Assembly (NCBI GenBank): GCA_007128425.1
Contig: SKXL01000179.1
Location: 1-43,945, forward strand
Direction: 5' to 3'
DNA: 43,945 bases
DNA from: Balneolales bacterium
GTDB taxonomy: Bacteria > Bacteroidota > Rhodothermia > Balneolales > Natronogracilivirgulaceae
Under the pieces are notes generated by a model. It was not told where the DNA came from. It saw only the letters and a list, made by a program, of their open reading frames with translations, and did no database searches. This document shows, one piece after another, positions 785 to 12,076 of this stretch. A program made the position numbers and the translations under genes. Each line of letters starts with the position of its first letter. Position 1 is the stretch's first letter.

Positions 785-2281
785 TCAAGATTTGCGGTCC
801 TTGCGCCGGGAAACAGCAGCAACCGTCTGCCGGATGAATACCTGAAGATCTTCAGACAGGTTCATGATAAAGATGCCGCTAATGATGATCACTATGGCTA
901 TTGCGGACCGCAAAATAAGATCGGCTATCCAGTGCGGAATCACGGGCAGACCCCATGAGACCAGCAGTGTTATAACAAGCAAAGCAAGACCCATAATGGT
1001 TTTTTTACTGAAAGGGTGGATTCCAAGTCGAAATAATAAATACAGAGCATAAAGGGAGTTATAAATCAGTACGGAGAGCGCCGTTGCCATGGCTGCTCCG
1101 GTGATTCCGAAAATCGGGATAAAAATGATATTGGTGATAATGGTCAGCAGAACCAGCAAGAGGGTTGCATAGGGATCAAACCGGTACCACTTGGAAGTTT
1201 TGATAATTGCGGCATTTAGCCCCGCAGTCATGTCAATCATTTTGGCAATGCCTATGAACATGAAGACATAGACACCGGCATGATATTCATCCGGCAGAAA
1301 ACGGTAGATATGGTCGAGATTGATTCCGATGATAATAAATACCAGTCCGCCCACCAGCATTTGGTTGATGGAGCTTTTGGAGTGGGTCAGCTCGATCATT
1401 GCGATGTCGTTTTTGTATTGCGCCTCAGCGATCAGCGGCTGTGAAATCTTCGAGAGTGCTTTAGCCGGAATTTTTATCATGGTGGCCAGATAGAGGCTTA
1501 CGGCATAAACAGCCGTTTCAGCGAGATTGGTCATTCCTCCAACCATAAGCAAGTCGATGTTACCGAGTGCCTTGGTCGTGACACCTCCGAGGAAGGAAAA
1601 AGCGGCATATTTGGTCATACTGCGGACACGGGAAGCTGTCAGAATACTGAAATCCGGAATTACAAAAAGCTGTCTTCTGAAACCAATGTAGCACAGCATC
1701 AGGATGGTTTTAAGTCCGAAAGTACCCACAAACATCCACATAAACATACCGAATGGAATCCATCCTAAATAATAAAACAGCACTACGGCGGTTTGAAACA
1801 GCCTGAGAAGGATGTCCTGAAAAAATGTTGCGACAACCGTATCAAACAGGGAGCGGATATAGTTTTCCAGAATGTGGAAATAGAGGATAAAAAACAGCAG
1901 AGGCAAGAGTAGGGTATAATAGTCCCCGAACAGGGTGCTTTCGTCGGAATAGAAACGGATGACCGGTTCCTGAAACAGCCAACCGGCAAGGCTGAGCAGC
2001 AGGAACCCGGCAAGAGGAATGACAGCTGCCAGAAACAGGTAACCAAAATGACGACGTTCGGGATTGCGAAAAAGAGGAAAATAGCGCACCGTTACATTTC
2101 CCATACCAAGACTGGCAATCTGGGCTCCGATGATGCCGATAGAGATCATCACCCGGGTCAGACCGAACTGTTCTGCCTCCAGGACATAAGGAAACAGCCA
2201 GACTACATTGACGAATCCGATGACAGTACCGGAATACGAATAAATATTTTCGGCAAAATTCTTTCGCAGGATGATACCCAT
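785..2281 (-). CDS. Polysaccharide flippase (Wzx/MATE-like, MOP superfamily)
   Basis: A 498-residue, highly hydrophobic protein with about 12-14 predicted membrane segments and almost no soluble domain. It belongs by appearance to the oligosaccharide flippase group of the MOP superfamily, which moves lipid-linked sugar units across the inner membrane. The N-terminus (FAENIYSYSGTVIGFVNVVW) and the C-terminal hydrophobic repeat with GITGAAMATALS are typical of Wzx/lipopolysaccharide-biosynthesis membrane proteins. It is the distal gene of the minus-strand polysaccharide block and lies 61 bp from the methyltransferase. Its base composition is closer to the genome background than that of the 2.3-7.0 kb genes. 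The substrate cannot be told from sequence. A second, unrelated-looking flippase lies at 5611-6969. Confidence 0.85.
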   Translation of the reverse strand: MGIILRKNFAENIYSYSGTVIGFVNVVWLFPYVLEAEQFGLTRVMISIGIIGAQIASLGMGNVTVRYFPLFRNPERRHFGYLFLAAVIPLAGFLLLSLAGWLFQEPVIRFYSDESTLFGDYYTLLLPLLFFILYFHILENYIRSLFDTVVATFFQDILLRLFQTAVVLFYYLGWIPFGMFMWMFVGTFGLKTILMLCYIGFRRQLFVIPDFSILTASRVRSMTKYAAFSFLGGVTTKALGNIDLLMVGGMTNLAETAVYAVSLYLATMIKIPAKALSKISQPLIAEAQYKNDIAMIELTHSKSSINQMLVGGLVFIIIGINLDHIYRFLPDEYHAGVYVFMFIGIAKMIDMTAGLNAAIIKTSKWYRFDPYATLLLVLLTIITNIIFIPIFGITGAAMATALSVLIYNSLYALYLLFRLGIHPFSKKTIMGLALLVITLLVSWGLPVIPHWIADLILRSAIAIVIIISGIFIMNLSEDLQVFIRQTVAAVSRRKDRKS

Positions 2282-2342
2282 ATCGTGATAGTTTTCTCCG
2301 GAGAGTGACTTTTTCTGTCAGTATGAATCTAATTCACCGATA

Positions 2343-3248
2343 TTATTCTTTCCATCCATGCGGATCACCGATAGAACGCCTTCCAACAATAGGCTGCAAA
2401 TCCCAGTATAGAGGTTTCATTTCAGGGTTATCGGATCTCTTTTTCACAATACAGACACCGAGTTCACCAAGATCCATGGCGTGTAAAAATTCATTTCGAT
2501 TACTAAGAATATTCCATGCGTCACGCATATCATGAGACCACGAAATATCGTCAAAAATAACAACGGAGCCGGGGTTAAGAAATGGAAGTATTTTATTGAA
2601 ATAGTGTATGGTTGCAATTTTTTCATGGTGGCCATCGATAAATGCCATGTCAATTTTAGAATCTAATGATGGTAGTTCAAAGTCTATTGCTTCGTCAAAC
2701 AAAGCATTTACCACCTTGACGTTTTGGTTTGACTTCAGGCTTTCCCGGGCGATATTTGCTAAAGCCTCAGACCCCTCCACAGTTATTATTAGTTTGACGT
2801 TTGGAGCTGAAGACAGATACATACTTGAGATACCGGCACATGTACCCAACTCGATTCCCACTGAAGACTCAAATTCTCTTGCAAGCAGATAAAGCACGGT
2901 TCCCCATGTCTGGTTTTTTCCGGTCATTGCAATACGTTTCATTGTAAATTCCAGGACTTTGCCTGGTTGCGGACGTGCATTAATACTGGTATCGCTACCA
3001 GAACTATCGGGCTTTGGGGAGTACCATATAGGTATTTTCTCGTCCCCTTTACCGGCAATTTCTTTTCGCCTGCCTTCCGCAAGTTTTACGACAGCAGCAG
3101 TTTTTTCGTCTGAATGCCCGGTCACCAAATAATTCAGTATAGATTTCATTTGTATCGGCAAACCATTATCAATAAGGATTGAAATTTTTTTCATCCTCGA
3201 TTTTCGTGTTATAGAATTGAATAATTTTCCGGTTACCTTTTTTATCAT
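2343..3248 (-). CDS. Class I SAM-dependent methyltransferase (Methyltransf_24-like)
   Basis: A 301-residue protein with a Rossmann methyltransferase core in its second half. The SAM-binding motif I is ELGTCAG (about 133-139), and an acidic strand end with FIDGHH (about 203-208) is followed by VVIFDDISWS, as in the O-methyltransferase-like families that modify small molecules or sugars. The first 100 or so residues are basic and poorly recognisable. It sits between a flippase and a pyruvyl transferase, 7 bp from the latter, so sugar or glycan modification is likely. The exact substrate is inference. The gene shares the AT-rich composition of the neighbouring polysaccharide genes. Confidence 0.82.
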   Translation of the reverse strand: MIKKVTGKLFNSITRKSRMKKISILIDNGLPIQMKSILNYLVTGHSDEKTAAVVKLAEGRRKEIAGKGDEKIPIWYSPKPDSSGSDTSINARPQPGKVLEFTMKRIAMTGKNQTWGTVLYLLAREFESSVGIELGTCAGISSMYLSSAPNVKLIITVEGSEALANIARESLKSNQNVKVVNALFDEAIDFELPSLDSKIDMAFIDGHHEKIATIHYFNKILPFLNPGSVVIFDDISWSHDMRDAWNILSNRNEFLHAMDLGELGVCIVKKRSDNPEMKPLYWDLQPIVGRRSIGDPHGWKE

Positions 3249-3255
3249 GGGTACT

Positions 3256-4434
3256 TTAACAATTAGTAATTGATTTAATATCCGAATTCCTTTCTTCAGC
3301 TACTTGCCAGACTATTTTCCACATTCTCTCAGTATTGCTTTTTAACTCTTTGATTTGTATGAAAAGATGTTTTCTCAATTTTGAGTGATTGTCCGGATCC
3401 AGCAGTGATTCAATTTTATTTTTTGTATGTTCAGGTTTCTCATTAAGATCTATAATGTGATCCTTTACATTGAAATCTTCAAACAATAACTGATATTTAT
3501 GACTCCAGCTGGTCGCCAGGCAAGGGACACCCTGATTCAATGCACTGGCAATCCCATGATAGCGTGATGAGATGACCATATAGGAAGAACCTATTACACC
3601 TTTTATTTCTTTTGCATCCAGTCCGGTAATGATGGTTAGCCGGTTATCAAACATTCTGTTGATCCCCTTACATATTTTCAAATCTTTATTTCCTTCATGA
3701 TTAAGCAAAAATACCTGCTTGCCAGATTCTTGAATCAGGGAAATTATGGATTCCATTTTGCCAAAATAATCTTGAGGGGAAAAACGGGTATGAGTGATCA
3801 TTTTCCTGTTGGGGATAATACACACGCTCCCTTTAACATGATGATATTTTACTGGAAAAATTCCTTTGGTAGCAATAGTGAAATCGGAGTAATGAAGTAT
3901 TTTCCCAGGGTTGATTCCTGCCTCCTTCAAGTGTTTTTTTGATGTGGGTTCACGTGCAATGATCAAATCGACATAATTATTTAGAATCTCTGTACTTTTT
4001 TTTCCGCTATGGGTTTTAAAAGGTCCAAAGGCTTGAGGAAGTAAAATGATTTTTGCACCTTGAGCCTTTACCGTTTTATAGTAATACTCCAGATTCTCAA
4101 GATACTCTTCAGAGTGATTCCATTGGTCACCCAGTCTGAAACCACTTGCATCTAAAATCAAATCTGGATGTTTGGGAGGATAAAGCTCGGTAAACCACGA
4201 GTATGGCAAATGTAATCGGGATAATATCACCCAGGGGTACGGGCCAAGCATTAACCTGAGAGGTTTTCTAAAGTGGAGATGTGTTTTAATCTTTGGAAAT
4301 TGTATGTTCGGGTTATTATCATTGAAAATCACGGATGATTCAGGATATTTATTTTCTATTTGCTCCAATATGGAATAGAGCATTAATTCTGCACCTTTAT
4401 TAATAGTATTTGTGCCATCAATTATAATTTTCAT
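3256..4434 (-). CDS. Polysaccharide pyruvyl transferase family protein
   Basis: A 392-residue protein of the WcaK/CsaB-like family, which transfers pyruvate from phosphoenolpyruvate to a sugar in cell-surface polymers to form acidic ketals. Visible family marks are the N-terminal DGTNTINKGAE, the central LPQAFGPF, and the C-terminal SSRYHGIASALNQGVPCLA followed by SHKYQLLFEDF. Its length is normal for the family. It is the middle gene of an AT-rich minus-strand run with a methyltransferase downstream and a nitroreductase-like gene upstream. The pairing of pyruvyl transferase and nitroreductase-like protein recurs in polysaccharide loci of the Bacteroidota. The acceptor sugar is not predictable. 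Confidence 0.88.
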   Translation of the reverse strand: MKIIIDGTNTINKGAELMLYSILEQIENKYPESSVIFNDNNPNIQFPKIKTHLHFRKPLRLMLGPYPWVILSRLHLPYSWFTELYPPKHPDLILDASGFRLGDQWNHSEEYLENLEYYYKTVKAQGAKIILLPQAFGPFKTHSGKKSTEILNNYVDLIIAREPTSKKHLKEAGINPGKILHYSDFTIATKGIFPVKYHHVKGSVCIIPNRKMITHTRFSPQDYFGKMESIISLIQESGKQVFLLNHEGNKDLKICKGINRMFDNRLTIITGLDAKEIKGVIGSSYMVISSRYHGIASALNQGVPCLATSWSHKYQLLFEDFNVKDHIIDLNEKPEHTKNKIESLLDPDNHSKLRKHLFIQIKELKSNTERMWKIVWQVAEERNSDIKSITNC

Positions 4435-4500
4435 GGCCGGATATTTTAAATGTAGTTTATGGTTAATATCTATATTACACCATTTATAACATTATGCACT

Positions 4501-5565
4501 TTAAAGGTCCTCTGGGTAGTAAATTCGTATTTTATCCAGCGATTTTTTTTCAGATGATGCAACCAATCCCTTTGGATCCGGATAACCTACCGCCATACAC
4601 ATAATAGGACGTTGATAGTTATTCAAATTCAAAACTTTTTGTAGTTTCATTTCCCGTTTTTCGATGTCCGGCCAGTTTATAGGACAACTGCTCAATCCGG
4701 TTGTTTCCAGGGCGAGCATAAATGACATTGAAGCCAGCGATGCGTCAATATAAATCAAATGTCTGTCTCTCTCATCGAAATAGGCATTCAGGTTCCCCAC
4801 AACCACGATAAACACTGGAATATTATGGGCGTATCCAGTTGTTCCCATAGGAAGATCCACAACTTTATTCAAGATATTTTTATCATCTATTATATAAAAA
4901 GTAAATGGTTGTCGATTACATGCACTCGGAGATTGTGAGGCTACTTCTATACACTTGTCTATCAGCTTTCTGGGAACCTTTTCCTCAGTGAACCAGCGGA
5001 CGGATCTTCGTTGTTTTGAAAGAGCAAAAAAGGAGTCTAAGGATACCAGATTTTTCTCTTTTAGCAACCGATTATAAGGTATGTGTTTTTTTCTATTTTC
5101 TGTATCAGTTTTATATGTATTTTGAAGATTTAAAAATCGTTGTTTTTCCCGGTCAATCACTTCATCATATCCTACAACATTAAAATACATATCCAGAACA
5201 TCATGAAACCATTTAACCTGATCATTTAGATTTTCATGATGGGAAAGAATGATCTTTTCATAGCAGTCAATTGTTTCTTTGATATAATTTTTACCAAATA
5301 TCTCTTTTCTGGGTCTCATAAGTAACCCTTTTTCGATTCTATGAATATTTCGGATTACCAAATAGTAGTTGTTCTTGTTCCAATAAATATCTCGAATATG
5401 TTTGATTTTTCCTTCAAGTACTGCCTGATGTTCTCTGTGGAAAGAACGCGAAAATAAGGCATAATATAAGCTTGACATTATCTTGCTTTTATAAAATAAA
5501 AGAGAGAGATAATAGTTTACCAGCAATCTTATCTTATTTATTGTGAATGGCCGGAAAGAACTCAT
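4501..5565 (-). CDS. Nitroreductase-family protein with N-terminal extension, in polysaccharide locus
   Basis: A 354-residue protein. The C-terminal half is a nitroreductase-fold flavoprotein domain: RRSVRWF (186-192) matches the FMN-phosphate binding arginines, and SPSACNRQP (212-220) is the usual next motif. The first 170 residues form an extension carrying HRIEKGLLMRPR (about 75-86), seen in nitroreductase-like proteins of polysaccharide clusters. Such enzymes use FMN for reduction or oxidation of small molecules; the substrate here is unknown. It is separated by 45 bp from the flippase upstream and 66 bp from the pyruvyl transferase. DNA is strikingly AT-rich (5101-5160 is 17 G/C of 60), which supports horizontal acquisition of the cassette. 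Confidence 0.84.
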   Translation of the reverse strand: MSSFRPFTINKIRLLVNYYLSLLFYKSKIMSSLYYALFSRSFHREHQAVLEGKIKHIRDIYWNKNNYYLVIRNIHRIEKGLLMRPRKEIFGKNYIKETIDCYEKIILSHHENLNDQVKWFHDVLDMYFNVVGYDEVIDREKQRFLNLQNTYKTDTENRKKHIPYNRLLKEKNLVSLDSFFALSKQRRSVRWFTEEKVPRKLIDKCIEVASQSPSACNRQPFTFYIIDDKNILNKVVDLPMGTTGYAHNIPVFIVVVGNLNAYFDERDRHLIYIDASLASMSFMLALETTGLSSCPINWPDIEKREMKLQKVLNLNNYQRPIMCMAVGYPDPKGLVASSEKKSLDKIRIYYPEDL

Positions 5566-5610
5566 ATTGATAATTTATAGATTAGAGGTTTGAAAAGTGA
5601 ATATAAAATG

Positions 5611-6969
5611 TTATTTCAACAATATATATATATATCGTAATGGTGAGAGTATAGCTCTGGTCATCATCCAGAAAATAAGTCTGCTTTTTTTATAAAAAAG
5701 TAGAGAAAAATAGGAAGCAGCAGCATAAGAAATTATCGTTGCCATTGCAGCACCTGTACCTTCATAAATCGGAATCAACATTATATTCAACAAAATATTC
5801 AAAAGAGCACCTATTCCCTGGGTAATCATAGAAAAAGAGATAGCATCTTCCAGCAGTATCCATTTGCTGAACGCAGCCCTCATAAAAATAAATATACCCG
5901 CCCAAATGTGTATTGATAAAATTAATGCTGCTTCTTCAAACTCCACTCCATAAAGGAATAAAATCAGAGGGTCGGAAATAAAAGTGACGACAATCGCCAA
6001 TGATAATGCAATCATAAATAACATGTCAAATAACTGTTGCAAGCGTTTTTGGAAGTGTTGGTTGTCTTTATTTTGGAGTTCTATCAGTTTTGGGAAAATT
6101 GAAGCAACAATAAGAGTAGGAATAAAATACCATGTTTCTGAAAGATTAACGGCAACCGAATAGATACCTACCTCTTCGGTGTTTACCAGCCAACGTATCA
6201 TGACCTGGTCGATTTTCAAATAAACCATTGCAAACAAAGCGCCAAGCATAATCATCCAGCTATGTCCAAGTAATTCTTTTGCTTTTGCAAGTTTGAATCG
6301 TAACTCTTTAAATGTGATGATGGACTTTAGCTTAAAGAAATAAAGAAACAGAAAAGCAATTAACATTGCTTTTATCAAGTAACTAAAGGCAAATGCTAAT
6401 ATGTGGGCACCAATTACCACCAGAAGCACACTTAATATTGTAAAAAAAATGGACACCAATCCGCGAGCTGTTGCAGAGTATTTGGCCATTACCTGTGACT
6501 GAAACCAATAATCGAAAATTTCAAAGGGTTTAAACAATATTATACCGGATGCAACCAGTAAAACCCAAAACTGGGTACTTCCAACACTTTCGGTGCTAAG
6601 TATAATGGTCAGAAAGACCACAATGGCAAACACAGCGCCCATTAACTTGAGATAGAAGATAGTTCCAAGAAGGTCTGTATGACGATCAGGAAACCTGACC
6701 AGCTCTCTTATAGCTAAACCGTGGAGTCCCATATGAGTAGCAATGGTAAAAAGCGAAACTAAAGATATGGCGTAAGATAAAATTCCATAGCCTTCGGCTC
6801 CCAAATGGCGGGCTACAAAAATACTTACTAACATCAGAAGACTCATGGTTATTATCTTTTCTCCCATTAACCAAGAGGTATTAGAAAAGTATTTTTTAAC
6901 TTCTTTTTCTTTTAGGAAGGGTATTATGTGCTTTAAAGCTTTAATAGCCGTTCTTTTATAATTTTTCAA
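5611..6969 (-). CDS. Oligosaccharide flippase family protein (Wzx-like)
   Basis: A 452-residue polytopic membrane protein with about 12-14 hydrophobic segments. The N-terminal NTSWLMGEKIITMSLLMLVS and VARHLGAEGYGILSYA are classic for the RfbX/Wzx polysaccharide flippase family, and a late GTGAAMATIISYA segment matches too. It probably flips the undecaprenyl-linked repeat unit built by the neighbouring enzymes. The last codons run through an (AT)7 dinucleotide tract (5622-5635) just before the stop. The gene is AT-rich, like the nitroreductase and pyruvyl transferase genes. It starts 25 bp after the glycosyltransferase stop, so co-transcription is likely. Confidence 0.88.
   Translation of the reverse strand: MKNYKRTAIKALKHIIPFLKEKEVKKYFSNTSWLMGEKIITMSLLMLVSIFVARHLGAEGYGILSYAISLVSLFTIATHMGLHGLAIRELVRFPDRHTDLLGTIFYLKLMGAVFAIVVFLTIILSTESVGSTQFWVLLVASGIILFKPFEIFDYWFQSQVMAKYSATARGLVSIFFTILSVLLVVIGAHILAFAFSYLIKAMLIAFLFLYFFKLKSIITFKELRFKLAKAKELLGHSWMIMLGALFAMVYLKIDQVMIRWLVNTEEVGIYSVAVNLSETWYFIPTLIVASIFPKLIELQNKDNQHFQKRLQQLFDMLFMIALSLAIVVTFISDPLILFLYGVEFEEAALILSIHIWAGIFIFMRAAFSKWILLEDAISFSMITQGIGALLNILLNIMLIPIYEGTGAAMATIISYAAASYFSLLFYKKSRLIFWMMTRAILSPLRYIYILLK
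5622..5635. repeat. (AT)7 dinucleotide tract at the 3' end of the flippase gene
   Basis: Seven perfect AT units cover the codons for the final Tyr-Ile-Tyr-Ile stretch, a few codons before the flippase stop. A slip would change only the extreme C-terminus and shift the stop, so any functional effect would be mild. Confidence 0.9.
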
Positions 6970-6994: not shown

Positions 6995-8464
6995 TTATGA
7001 CTCAAGGATATGTTCTGTGCCGGAGTTGAACAGCAACCTGGCAAGACGTTTTGTAAGTGCTGGTCGTGCGTATTGGGCAATTTTATCAATATCAGGGCAT
7101 ATTGTCGGGAATTTCTGCGACATATCGCGTTGCAACGTCGATTGGAAGGGCAAATTAGCTTCAAAATCCCGTTCGGAATCTGGTTTGACTTCGGATCCCG
7201 GTCTACATTCAGACTCCGGCATTGTTCCGTAATCGGGTTTTTTTTTGGTATTTGGTGCCTCGATGAATGTTTGAGAAGCGATATGGCGAATCCAGTCAGC
7301 CGGACCGGAGACATCATTGTAATCGAAAGCTGCTCCGATACGGCAACGCCGGATGATAGCAGCTGCGTCCCCGTCCGTTGGGCCGATCACCAAAATTGGT
7401 TTTCCCGCTTTCAGGTAGTCGTAAAGTTTGCCAGGGATCAGGATACGGCTGTCATCCGACCGGTGCACAACTACCACATTGATATCGGATTGTTGCATCA
7501 GAGAGGTTGCTTCATTGTGCGGTACATAAGAACGGATAGTCACAATTTCACTTAGGCCGAAGGAGTTGATATGGCGATGGATATCGGAGTGTACCGCTCC
7601 GATAAATTCCAGTCTGACCTTTGGTTTGGTTAAATCTGATATTGCTTTTAGCAGATTGTCCGGTATGGAAGTTTCCGTTATGCTTCCAACATGGCGTATC
7701 AGTAATGGGCGATTGGTGTCCGGTGTGCTCTTTTTTACTGCATTGAAATCGTCAGGGTCAAATCCGTTAGGAATAATGTGATAAGTTCGATCAACTTTTC
7801 CGGTTAAATAGCGTGCCGTACCCGGTGTGGTGACGGTCACCTCGTCGGCTTCATTGAGAACGGAAGTTTCCATCCGTTTGTCGCGTTTACGGGTCAGTGC
7901 AGTACGGGGAAGCACGTGATTATAGTGGATATCGGTCCATGGATCCCGGAAGTCGGCAATCCATCGAACGCCGGTTTTTCTCTTCAATCGGCGGCCAACA
8001 AAATGGGCGGAATGGGGTGGGCCGGTAGTGATTACGGTATCAATAGCATATTTAATTATCAGTGATCGGGCTTTGGATTGTGCAAACGGAACCCAGCCGA
8101 CCCGGGCATCAGGTACAAACAGATTGGCCCGCAACCATCGCGCCAAACGTTGTGGCAAGTTCAAATCCTTTGCTCCAAGTATTGTGACAGGATTTGCCAC
8201 TTGTTCGGGAGTCGTACCCGCCATCCAGCTGTAAAATCTGAACGGCTCAATGGTACGCGCATAGTAAACGGGAAGACCGGCAGGAACATCGTTTATAAGC
8301 GAACTATCCTTCATGGGATAAGTCGGATTGGCACAGGTCAGAACCACCGGATCGATCCCATACTTCGGGAAATATTTTACAAATTTGAGAAACCTTTGCA
8401 CACCGGCCCCGCCGCTTGGCGGCCAGTAATAGGTAATGACCAGTACCTTTTTTCGTTGTATCAT
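6995..8464 (-). CDS. Glycosyltransferase family 4 protein with low-complexity insert
   Basis: A 489-residue GT-B fold glycosyltransferase. The N-terminal YYWPPSGGAGVQRFLKF is typical of the GT4 sugar transferases of Bacteroidota-like polysaccharide loci, followed by DFRDPW, HIIPNGFDPDDF at the domain hinge, and LRH/VGS with LIPGKLYDYLKAGKPIL near the donor site. The start overlaps the yfhO stop (ATGA, 8461-8464), so the two genes are translationally coupled. Around residues 407-445, between the last GT domain strand and the C-terminal helix (LTKRLARLL), there is a Pro/Ser/Glu/Asp-rich insert with repeated PxSE-like units, not expected in the family. A nine-base A run sits at its beginning. 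Donor and acceptor are unknown. Confidence 0.9.
   Translation of the reverse strand: MIQRKKVLVITYYWPPSGGAGVQRFLKFVKYFPKYGIDPVVLTCANPTYPMKDSSLINDVPAGLPVYYARTIEPFRFYSWMAGTTPEQVANPVTILGAKDLNLPQRLARWLRANLFVPDARVGWVPFAQSKARSLIIKYAIDTVITTGPPHSAHFVGRRLKRKTGVRWIADFRDPWTDIHYNHVLPRTALTRKRDKRMETSVLNEADEVTVTTPGTARYLTGKVDRTYHIIPNGFDPDDFNAVKKSTPDTNRPLLIRHVGSITETSIPDNLLKAISDLTKPKVRLEFIGAVHSDIHRHINSFGLSEIVTIRSYVPHNEATSLMQQSDINVVVVHRSDDSRILIPGKLYDYLKAGKPILVIGPTDGDAAAIIRRCRIGAAFDYNDVSGPADWIRHIASQTFIEAPNTKKKPDYGTMPESECRPGSEVKPDSERDFEANLPFQSTLQRDMSQKFPTICPDIDKIAQYARPALTKRLARLLFNSGTEHILES
7238..7246. repeat. A9 homopolymer (T9 on + strand) in the glycosyltransferase gene
   Basis: Nine consecutive A residues on the coding strand encode Lys407-409, precisely where the hydrophilic insert starts. 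A one-base slip would frameshift the last 80 or so codons and remove the C-terminal helix region. Tracts of this length in surface-sugar genes can act as phase-variation switches, but that is inference here. Confidence 0.85.
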
Positions 8465-10989
8465 CTCTTCCTGTAATAATTTACCAGCATAAATGCACCG
8501 ATGAGCAGGATAATAATATTAAAAATCCAGGACAGCCTGCTTCCAAGAATGTGTGACCTCGGGTCAAATCGCAATATAAGCTCGTGTTCCCCGGCAGGAA
8601 TCTCAAAACCGCGTAAAATGTAATTGGTTCGATGGATATCTATCGGCTCATTGTTTAGTGTGGCCTGCCAGCCGGCGGGATAATAAATCTCACTCAACAC
8701 AAGAAAAGAGGAAGCGTCAGTTTCAACTGAAATTCTTATTTCGCGCGGGCCGTATTCGGTTACTTCAGTGATTCGGTTATCGGTAGGAGCTATAACCGGT
8801 ATCCGGTCGACCTCCTGCAGGATTGCTGTAGTGGCTGCCTCGAACCGGTTCAATTCATCTATCGCATCATGGGCAGTACCCGCAACGATCAGGGAATCGA
8901 CAAACCAGGTTTTTGGCAAGACCTGCCGGTTCTCCATTACCACTCCACCGTTACCCTGGTAGACTACATCCCAGCCAGGCAGATTAAGGGGTGCTTGATA
9001 AGTCAGAAAACGGGTGTTGAGCATATTGAGAACCTCGTTATTGAGGCCGGATGGACCGTTATATAGGGCATGATCGATAACATCCTGATAATTACTCAAT
9101 TTGGCACCTGCGTAACCACCTATTGAGGGATAGACAAACGCTGCCGGCACAGCATTGTTAAAAGGGTTATCACCAAGCGGGAAGGATCGCCAGGACCAGA
9201 CCTGTCCGTCTCTTTTTTGTTCCTCAATATAGCGGTCGATGGAGCGGATCTGGGCAGCTAAAACTTCATTTGGGGATTGATCTGCATGAATCAGTCCGCT
9301 TTTATCAACATAGCGATTACCGATCTGAACAAGATCGATCGAAGCAAGGAGTACAAGTCCGGCCAGTGCATAATTGGCAGGAATTTTTCTTAGTGCGGCA
9401 CCGGCCAACAAACCACTCCCAAGAAGGATAAAAATCAGAAAGCGCCGACTGTCGGATGTTGCTCTTTCCATACGTTCCGGTCGTAACTGCCCTTCAATAT
9501 AACGCCTTGCAAATTGCTGTACCTGCGGATCATCCACCCGCATGTTCTGTTGACTGGCAATCTGCTGGGCCAGCAATTCGTGTTCACCCTCTTTCTCAAA
9601 GCTCAGAAGTGATCCCGTGAAGACAATGAAAAAGAGCGCGAAGGCCAGGGCGATTCCGCCGGGCAGATAGAGTGCACGAAGCGAGAGTGTTCCGTCTTTC
9701 CAGCTGTCATAGAGCCATTTCATACCCATGGATGCAACGACAGCACAGGAAAAAACGGTAACGATAAGCCACATCTCCGGAGTCCGGAATTTGTTAAAAA
9801 GCGGCATGTATTGAAAAAACAGAATGTTGAAACTGTACAGGTGTTTTCCAAGAGAAAAGAGCAATGCAAGGACACCGGAACCCACAAAAACATATTTCAG
9901 CCGGCCAGGTGCACGGAAAAGGCCAACGAGAAGCATCAGGAAGACGATTGCTCCAAGGTAATGGGGCCCGCTGGTAAAAGTTTTTGGTCCCCAATAGGTT
10001 CCATCGGCCGATGAACCACCGAAACTGTCAGGGATGATCAGGGTGAGCAGTTCGGCTCGTCCCTGTGACCAAGCGAAAGCATAATCGACATCGAGGCCAC
10101 CGCCGGTTTCTTCTTCCTGTAATTCCGATCCACCGCGTATGCTGAAAGGTGTGTATTCATACATACTCCAATAAGGCTGGGTATTGGCGGCCAGAGCCAG
10201 CAGACCGGCCAGGATCATGAGTGCAGCGCGTCGTGACCAGCCGGTTAAAGTTTGATTGCGATAAGCCGTAACTCCGTCATAAACAAACCAGATTGCAAGC
10301 ACGTAAAGGAAATAATAAAGAACCTGGATATGTTCGGCACGGAGCGTGAAATTGAGAGCAATGGCAAAAAGAAAGAGACCGGCCAGGCGTTGTTGGCTGC
10401 GGGAAAGCATCCAGTAGCCTGACATTACCCATGGAATGTAAGAATAGGCGATCAATTTGGAGTTATGGCCTGCACCCACGATGATAGGGATATAGGTGGT
10501 CAGGCATATCGCCAGTGCGGCCAGAGCGGCCGGTAGTGGCCGGTAACCCATCAACCAGAATAAAAAATAGACTCCTCCGATACATATGGTAAGTGGAATG
10601 GCGGGTATAAACATGGTGGAAAATGTCCGGCGGATCAGGGTGTCAATATGAGTAAAGGTCTTGTTTCCGTATACCGTATAAGAGGGCATCCCGCTAAAGA
10701 TATGGGTGGCCCAGAGTGCGTCTTCTCCGGTTTCCTCCTGGTATTCGATGACGGACTGGGCGGTGGCGCGGAACTGCTGGATGTCATGGGCGAAGAATTG
10801 CTGTCCGCTGAAGTAGACTTCGCTGAAGATGAATGAGGGGACCATCAGCAGGAAGACCAGTACGATCAGATGGCGGTATTTCAGAGGAATCTGCTCCCAT
10901 AAATCAGGTATGGATGGTGCGGATGCTGATCTTTTCCGTGTCTTGCGGGATGTTTTTTTTGAGGAGGTTTCTCGCCGATTTTTAGCCAT
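8461..10989 (-). CDS. YfhO family membrane protein (GT-C-like)
   Basis: An 842-residue protein. A basic, Ser/Lys/Arg-rich cytoplasmic N-terminus of about 30 residues is followed by a dozen or so membrane segments and a large C-terminal extracytoplasmic domain (about residues 520-810), ending with one more membrane helix. Segment patterns such as FAHDIQQFRA, ATHIFSGMPSY, GAGHNSKLIAYSYIPW and the C-terminal SEIYYPAGWQATLNNEPI are hallmarks of YfhO proteins, which are GT-C-fold enzymes implicated in glycosylating lipoteichoic acid or other envelope polymers. Here it leads the operon and probably adds sugars outside the membrane. Its ATG overlaps the end of a truncated gatC copy by 8 bases, so translation may be coupled to that remnant. 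Confidence 0.9.
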   Translation of the reverse strand: MAKNRRETSSKKTSRKTRKRSASAPSIPDLWEQIPLKYRHLIVLVFLLMVPSFIFSEVYFSGQQFFAHDIQQFRATAQSVIEYQEETGEDALWATHIFSGMPSYTVYGNKTFTHIDTLIRRTFSTMFIPAIPLTICIGGVYFLFWLMGYRPLPAALAALAICLTTYIPIIVGAGHNSKLIAYSYIPWVMSGYWMLSRSQQRLAGLFLFAIALNFTLRAEHIQVLYYFLYVLAIWFVYDGVTAYRNQTLTGWSRRAALMILAGLLALAANTQPYWSMYEYTPFSIRGGSELQEEETGGGLDVDYAFAWSQGRAELLTLIIPDSFGGSSADGTYWGPKTFTSGPHYLGAIVFLMLLVGLFRAPGRLKYVFVGSGVLALLFSLGKHLYSFNILFFQYMPLFNKFRTPEMWLIVTVFSCAVVASMGMKWLYDSWKDGTLSLRALYLPGGIALAFALFFIVFTGSLLSFEKEGEHELLAQQIASQQNMRVDDPQVQQFARRYIEGQLRPERMERATSDSRRFLIFILLGSGLLAGAALRKIPANYALAGLVLLASIDLVQIGNRYVDKSGLIHADQSPNEVLAAQIRSIDRYIEEQKRDGQVWSWRSFPLGDNPFNNAVPAAFVYPSIGGYAGAKLSNYQDVIDHALYNGPSGLNNEVLNMLNTRFLTYQAPLNLPGWDVVYQGNGGVVMENRQVLPKTWFVDSLIVAGTAHDAIDELNRFEAATTAILQEVDRIPVIAPTDNRITEVTEYGPREIRISVETDASSFLVLSEIYYPAGWQATLNNEPIDIHRTNYILRGFEIPAGEHELILRFDPRSHILGSRLSWIFNIIILLIGAFMLVNYYRKR

Positions 10990-11182
10990 AGACGGATGAA
11001 TGCGTTATTGGATGAAACGGGTAAGGAAGCAGGGGCACACTGGGGGTATTGGCCTGGACGAGCAGTTCCATGTATTCCAGTATGTCATTCATATCTTTGA
11101 CGAGGTATTCTTTTTCCTCATCGGTCAGCTGAAGGCGCGCCAGATTAGCCATGCAGGTTACATCGTCACGGGTTACCGACAT
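10982..11182 (-). pseudogene. Truncated second copy of gatC, now a leader ORF overlapping yfhO
   Basis: A 66-codon frame whose first 49 or so residues match the intact GatC at 11683-11970 closely (shared LARLQL and KDMNDILEYMELL). After the SVP-L position the similarity stops and 14 unrelated residues follow to a TAA inside the yfhO start region (the last 8 bases overlap). The C-terminal half of GatC, which wraps around the GatA subunit, is missing, so it is unlikely to work in the amidotransferase. The nucleotide match over 11041-11182 versus 11829-11970 is 131 of 142 by hand count. It could still be translated and serve only to couple expression of yfhO. Confidence 0.85.
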
Positions 11183-11287
11183 AGTAAAATGGATAAATTG
11201 ATATGAATGTACGAATGGACAGCATTTTGGTAATTTACAAAATGTGTAATCAAAGTGTTATCAAAGGCTGGTCTATTTGCAGCCGGA
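11028..11287. repeat. Direct repeat copy 1 (5' half of gatC plus upstream region)
   Basis: Aligns base for base with 11816-12076, offset 788-789 bp. It contains the first half of the truncated gatC and about 105 bp of upstream DNA, including a well-conserved block with AATTTACAAAATGTGTAATC. The upstream block is conserved in both copies, so it probably carries the gatC promoter or leader. The repeat breaks off inside gatC on one side and inside the methyltransferase remnant on the other. Confidence 0.9.
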
Positions 11288-11584
11288 GGCAAACGGTGGT
11301 AGTATAGCGGATATCGGATGCATGATCGAGGTAATTTTTCCCAGATATACCAGCGAGGTGTGAACAAACGTAGAATCGGCCGGATACCCGGCACGTTTTT
11401 CAGGTTCCCTGTCCAGATCAATATCGGTGTTCAGAACCTTAAATCCCTCGTTTCTTAAAATCTCGGAGAACCGATTCTCAGCGCCAAGATCCAGGATGGT
11501 CTGGTCTTTCCGGATGCGGCCGTTCATGAAATCGAGCGTAAGGCTGTACCGTCGTTTGTGTGGATCGAAAGGGATGATCGGCAT
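11273..11584 (-). pseudogene. Truncated class I SAM methyltransferase remnant
   Basis: A 103-codon frame whose first 55 or so residues look like the N-terminus of a small SAM-dependent methyltransferase: RYSLTLDFMNGRI, then DQTILDLGAENRFSEILR (SAM motif I region) and VLNTDIDLD (the acidic strand-2 end). After about residue 60 the family pattern is lost, and the frame ends inside the upstream part of direct repeat copy 1 (from about 11287 downward). The catalytic C-terminal half is absent, so this is a broken gene created by the duplication junction. Its ATG overlaps the stop of the preceding short fragment (TGATG), which shows that the two were once neighbouring coupled genes. Confidence 0.72.
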
Positions 11585-11673
11585 CAGGAGTCAGGGATTT
11601 CAGCAGCAAGTTCGTGTAATGGTTTCCATTGAAAACGTGTTTTGACTTTTGTTCCTTTCGGAGCCAGTACCAC
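11584..11673 (-). pseudogene. 29-codon C-terminal gene fragment between gatC and the methyltransferase remnant
   Basis: An open frame from GTG at 11673 to TGA at 11584, lying in the same reading frame as the intact gatC and beginning three codons after its stop. It encodes a short basic and amphipathic tail (APKGTKVKTRFQWKPLHEL is part of it). The TGATG overlap with the methyltransferase ATG suggests that it is the natural 3' end of a lost gene. I do not recognise the parent family. It could also be a real small ORF starting at the GTG, but it has no clear ribosome site. Confidence 0.45.
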
Positions 11674-11682
11674 GCCATGGTA

Positions 11683-11970
11683 TCAGTCAATCACCCTTGG
11701 AACACGGAAATAGTCGGCATCGGCATCAGGTGCATTTTTCAGGGCCTGTTCGTGGTCCAGAGGAGCCAGGGCCTTGTCGGGCCGGTAGCCGGCTTCGGTA
11801 TCGGCGACATGTTCCAGCGGAGGCACACTGGAAGTATCGACCTGGCCGAGCAGTTCCATATATTCCAGTATGTCATTCATATCTTTGACGAGGGATTCTT
11901 TCTCCTCATCGGCCAGCTGAAGGCGCGCCAGATTGGCCATGTAGGTTACATCGTCACGGGTTACCGACAT
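11683..11970 (-). CDS. gatC: Asp-tRNA(Asn)/Glu-tRNA(Gln) amidotransferase subunit C
   Basis: A 95-residue full-length GatC, the small subunit that stabilises GatA in the GatCAB complex. GatCAB converts misacylated Glu-tRNA(Gln) or Asp-tRNA(Asn) in the cytoplasm. Recognisable marks are MSVTRDDVTYMANLARLQL at the start, NDILEYMELLGQVDTS in the middle, and the near-universal tail NAPDADADYFRVPRVID with HV-D before it. The first ATG is supported by family length. It reads away from ptsH, with about 209 bp of shared upstream DNA. Its 5' half and upstream region are duplicated 788 bp downstream, where the copy is truncated. Confidence 0.95.
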   Translation of the reverse strand: MSVTRDDVTYMANLARLQLADEEKESLVKDMNDILEYMELLGQVDTSSVPPLEHVADTEAGYRPDKALAPLDHEQALKNAPDADADYFRVPRVID

Positions 11971-12076
11971 AATAAAATTGGATTAAATGGATTGATCATG
12001 CAATTGGACAGCATTGCCGCAATTTACAAAATGTGTAATCAAAGTGTTAGTAAAGGCTGGTCCATTTGAAGCCGGG
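11816..12076. repeat. Direct repeat copy 2 (5' half of intact gatC plus upstream region)
   Basis: Partner of the repeat at 11028-11287. It spans the start-proximal half of the intact gatC and about 105 bp of the gatC-ptsH intergenic region. Synonymous and non-synonymous differences have accumulated (11 of 142 in the aligned coding part), so the duplication is not brand new. Confidence 0.9.

Follow-up and report, generated by a model that had tools for sequence, protein, structure and literature searches.

A gatC locus in a Balneolales bacterium that reads as a tandem duplication cut down by deletions

Tandem duplication followed by decay leaves head-to-tail copies that meet at a novel junction; redundant sequence is then lost, one copy stays functional and the other drifts. 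Large tandem duplications in bacterial chromosomes have been described, for example in PMC7661048. The gatC locus analysed here, which lies in a 43,945-nucleotide stretch of DNA from an uncultured Balneolales bacterium (the window), resembles bacterial tandem duplication with pseudogenisation in its head-to-tail copies, one of them working and the other drifting. It differs in that the supposed unit is represented by its two ends only, the middle having been lost, so that we infer the extent of the unit. Among the results listed by a literature search, no publication deals with this gatC duplication. The window genome (G000) is a metagenome-type draft in 263 contigs, approximately 91% complete, and was compared with 60 related genomes. 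All genes concerned lie on the minus strand, and coordinates are window positions.

6995-8464, minus strand: glycosyltransferase (GT, GT4-like), which follows yfhO in relatives too
8461-10989, minus strand: yfhO-like membrane protein, the sole copy in the genome, ancestrally next to gatC
11028-11182, minus strand: gatC copy 2, a truncated pseudogene, with homology to about codon 50 and an ORF that runs on to 10982
11183-11286, minus strand: duplicated gatC upstream region, copy 2 (repeat search, blastn)
11235-11260, minus strand: conserved gatC-upstream motif, copy 2 (motif scan)
11287-11344, minus strand: junction zone from the methyltransferase 3' end to the duplicated gatC upstream region (anchored alignment, p = 0.018)
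11345-11584, minus strand: class I methyltransferase (MT) pseudogene, 210 nt of the 5' part plus 48 nt of the 3' part (blastn against relatives)
11585-11682, minus strand: stretch X, about 98 bp with an open frame of about 31 codons, no homologue found
11683-11970, minus strand: gatC copy 1, complete, 95 aa (TIGR00135, PF02686)
11971-12076, minus strand: DNA upstream of copy 1, as far as it is shared with copy 2 (repeat search, blastn)
12024-12049, minus strand: conserved gatC-upstream motif, copy 1 (TAACACTTTGATTACACATTTTGTAA; motif scan)

A repeat search of the window finds direct repeats at 11028-11190 and 11816-11978 (91%, spacing 788) and at 11186-11286 and 11975-12075 (80%, spacing 789). 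Blastn merges these segments into a single match of 261 nt at 87.7%, with an E value of 2e-88 that far exceeds chance. Each copy comprises the 5' half of gatC together with about 105 bp of the DNA upstream of it, which bears out the description in the first-pass annotation of two such repeats 788 bp apart; its figure of 131 of 142 matches for the coding part becomes 138 of 149, with 11 differing sites. The longest exact match between the copies is 33 nt. The repeat gives no Rfam match to a structured RNA up to E = 1.

Only one of the two genes is complete, as had been claimed. GatC is subunit C of the Asp-tRNA(Asn)/Glu-tRNA(Gln) amidotransferase (TIGR00135, PF02686), and copy 1 encodes a normal full-length member of this family: it scores 86.2 bits against TIGR00135 (cutoff 47.1) over positions 1-93 of 93, covers PF02686 in full (positions 1-66), and its product is 87% identical to GatC of genome G001. 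Copy 2 lacks the C-terminal half. It stays below the TIGR00135 cutoff with 35.8 bits, aligns only to positions 1-48 of 93 and thus falls short of full length, and matches only positions 1-37 of the 66 in PF02686. It also departs from the family in a Tyr10-to-Cys change, at a base identical in all 12 related genes compared. The ORF of copy 2 comprises 66 aa (10982-11182), and its stop falls 8 nt inside yfhO. This 8-nt overlap with the yfhO start (10982-10989, ATGGCTAA) is a layout that suits translational coupling.

When the differences in the 149 coding nucleotides are polarised with 12 relatives, six nonsynonymous and two synonymous changes fall on the copy-2 branch and zero to one nonsynonymous and one synonymous change on the copy-1 branch, with two of the 11 sites placed on neither. 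The ratio of 6:2 on the copy-2 branch compares with 6:20 between copy 1 and G001 (Fisher p = 0.013), although the counts are small and some intact gatC pairs have near-equal ratios in the same stretch (4:4). This statistic by itself is modest; combined with the truncation, it supports the reading of copy 2 as a pseudogene.

Among the 60 relatives, gatC is present in 56, with a single match in each, and two copies occur in the window genome only. No second intact gatC, yfhO or MT was found elsewhere in that genome. The two copies are each other's nearest relatives: they are 7.4% apart, against 17.4% between copy 1 and G001 and 20.8% between copy 2 and G001, which dates the duplication after the divergence from the nearest genome. 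In the public contig collection, the nearest GatC sequences belong to Balneolales metagenome-assembled genomes, where four gatC loci are listed; the gene-order comparison below was made without these four.

Gene order in the relatives is informative about the ancestral state. In the same-genus genomes G001, G004 and G009, ptsI-ptsH is divergent from a gatC-yfhO-GT-MT series, with a homologue of window 785-2281 further on. G005 has an asparagine-synthase-like gene between GT and MT. gatC and yfhO adjoin in every relative examined whose contig extends that far. In none of the relatives examined does an MT lie between gatC and yfhO; the MT lies downstream of GT or on another contig. The window copies of yfhO, ptsI and ptsH each have their closest match in G001 and therefore belong to the native locus and backbone. 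The gatC-X-methyltransferase order that had been proposed as ancestral is thus absent from all relatives examined.

Between the two gatC copies lies the broken methyltransferase that the first-pass annotation had recognised, and our comparison resolves it into two pieces. Positions 11584-11375 match the 5' 210 nt of the 174-aa MT of G004 at 76% DNA identity, and positions 11392-11345 match the 3' region (6481-6528 of contig L041) at 92%. The pieces overlap by 18 nt (11375-11392) at a short GCCGG-TA-C repeat. Approximately 245 bp have been lost internally and the frame is shifted, a lesion consistent with a deletion between short repeats. At 11345-11287 the MT 3' end meets gatC upstream DNA, which makes this zone the candidate novel junction, its exact breakpoint blurred. 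An anchored alignment of 11287-11344 as further gatC upstream DNA, which would take the duplication out to about 12140, is weak (p = 0.018), and the zone is possibly a diverged continuation of that DNA.

The open frame of X ends at the MT start, with a stop that overlaps the MT start codon (TGATG). X had been labelled a gene fragment, a label that is unproven: there is no credible homologue in the 60 relatives (best E = 0.046) or in Pfam. A remnant of yfhO, of GT or of a gene present in a relative was considered as its source and found no match by blastn, tblastn or Pfam.

A 26-nt motif, TTACACTTTGNNNNCACATTTTGTAA, occurs about 55 bp upstream of gatC, once per genome, in 12 relatives. It was sought in the 60 relatives with up to three mismatches. 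Eight carriers belong to the genus of the window genome and the other four to genera g4, g5 and g9, all in one Balneolales family; G015 has a weaker match, on a different contig from its gatC and not upstream of it, and the motif was not found in the remaining genomes of the 60 tested. Two occurrences lie in the window genome, one ahead of each gatC copy. A genome-wide element was considered and rejected, since in the window genome the motif is present only at the two gatC copies. Both window copies read TAACAC where relatives read TTACAC, and this T-to-A change is absent from all relatives. At its two ends the motif shows a partial inverted repeat (TTAC...GTAA), and we regard it as a candidate promoter or operator.

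A tandem duplication followed by deletion, as the first-pass annotation had proposed, is well supported: the copies are mutually closest, they share the unique T-to-A change in the motif, and copy 2 decays. The best explanation as a whole, to which we give a probability of about 0.6, is a large tandem duplication from gatC to MT that was subsequently trimmed. The duplication would have arisen in this lineage, started about 105 bp, or possibly about 170 bp, ahead of gatC and extended through yfhO, GT and MT, with its join at the MT 3' end. The duplicated unit was probably the entire segment from gatC to MT, at least about 4.6 kb long, which was hollowed out afterwards; such a unit is economical because the ancestral order is gatC-yfhO-GT-MT and none of the relatives examined has the MT between gatC and yfhO. 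The copy 1 unit would have kept gatC, X and the internally deleted MT and lost yfhO-GT. In the copy 2 unit, the upstream region, gatC up to codon 50 and yfhO-GT would remain, the 3' half of gatC having gone; the MT expected 3' of GT would have disappeared or given way to another glycan cassette. Copy 1 would now supply GatC, copy 2 being a pseudogene. The earlier idea that a deletion joined the truncated gatC to yfhO holds insofar as gatC was shortened, and fails insofar as it invoked loss of X and MT, since gatC and yfhO were ancestrally adjacent. More likely, copy 2 suffered a small deletion within that adjacent pair, and the large deletion took place in the other copy, where yfhO-GT is missing between gatC and X-MT. 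Counting against the large unit, a search of the window genome for leftovers of another yfhO or GT found none, so its size is deduced from synteny alone, and X is left without a source.

The missing yfhO remnant is what a smaller event would predict. If X-MT had initially been inserted between gatC and yfhO, a tandem duplication of gatC-X-MT, only about 0.8 kb, and one deletion that removed the second gatC 3' half with X and MT would suffice to join the truncated gatC to yfhO. Such a history, however, calls for an extra, unobserved transposition, and the relatives lack both MT and X in the interval from gatC to yfhO, their MT lying beyond GT or on another contig; we consider it unlikely.

The DNA beyond GT raises a different possibility. 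Here the window has wzx, a nitroreductase-like gene, a pyruvyltransferase and a methyltransferase-24 gene, and its glycan genes in 785-6969 (GT to the gene at 785-2281) are unlike the MT-GT2 arrangement of same-genus genomes; wzx has a good match only in G014, of another genus. This segment is probably an exchanged polysaccharide cassette. Conspecific DNA carrying gatC-yfhO-GT-wzx and the glycan cassette could thus have recombined in, its upstream end joined illegitimately to the MT of the old locus, with deletion of the old yfhO-GT leaving gatC-X-MT as debris. A merodiploid of this kind is a serious rival to simple tandem duplication given the different cassette and the wzx match, and it would account for the absence of MT from copy 2 with no separate loss. 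It would nevertheless require a nearly identical donor gatC, about three sites differing once copy-2-specific changes are removed, and yfhO shows a species-like pattern; on balance it appears quite improbable. Tandem duplication and merodiploid formation are both ordinary events. An assembly artefact, a chimera of strains or species, might be feared in a 263-contig draft compared with metagenome-assembled relatives. With a longest exact match of 33 nt, usual assembly k-mers should resolve the copies, and separate lesions (the MT deletion, the gatC truncation, drift) are not expected from chimerism, which makes this explanation highly improbable.

Under the large duplication with later trimming, the likely reason for the retention of copy 2 is that yfhO is transcribed from the element upstream of it and that its short ORF extends into the start of yfhO. 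The stretch at the motif is identical at 28 of 28 positions between the copies (12021-12048 on the copy-1 side), against 56 of 77 across the remainder of the shared upstream DNA (p = 0.0008), which suggests selection on the copy-2 element; its simplest role would be that of a predicted yfhO promoter. The dead copy 2 thus probably persists as promoter or leader of yfhO. A fuller version, in which the locus was rewired so that one copy of the same upstream regulatory element now serves gatC copy 1 and a separate copy serves the glycan operon of yfhO, and the half-gatC is a translated leader coupled to yfhO through the overlapping stop, is tentative and rather doubtful.

The locus is best read as a lineage-specific tandem duplication cut down by deletions, a case of ordinary genome remodelling, and the gatC duplicate overturns nothing established. 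With both unit ends remaining, it allows an intermediate stage of duplication, deletion and decay to be read, in which the coding part drifts but an element of regulatory appearance has been kept. The comparison also brings to light a gatC-upstream motif that, among the genomes tested, is confined to one Balneolales family.
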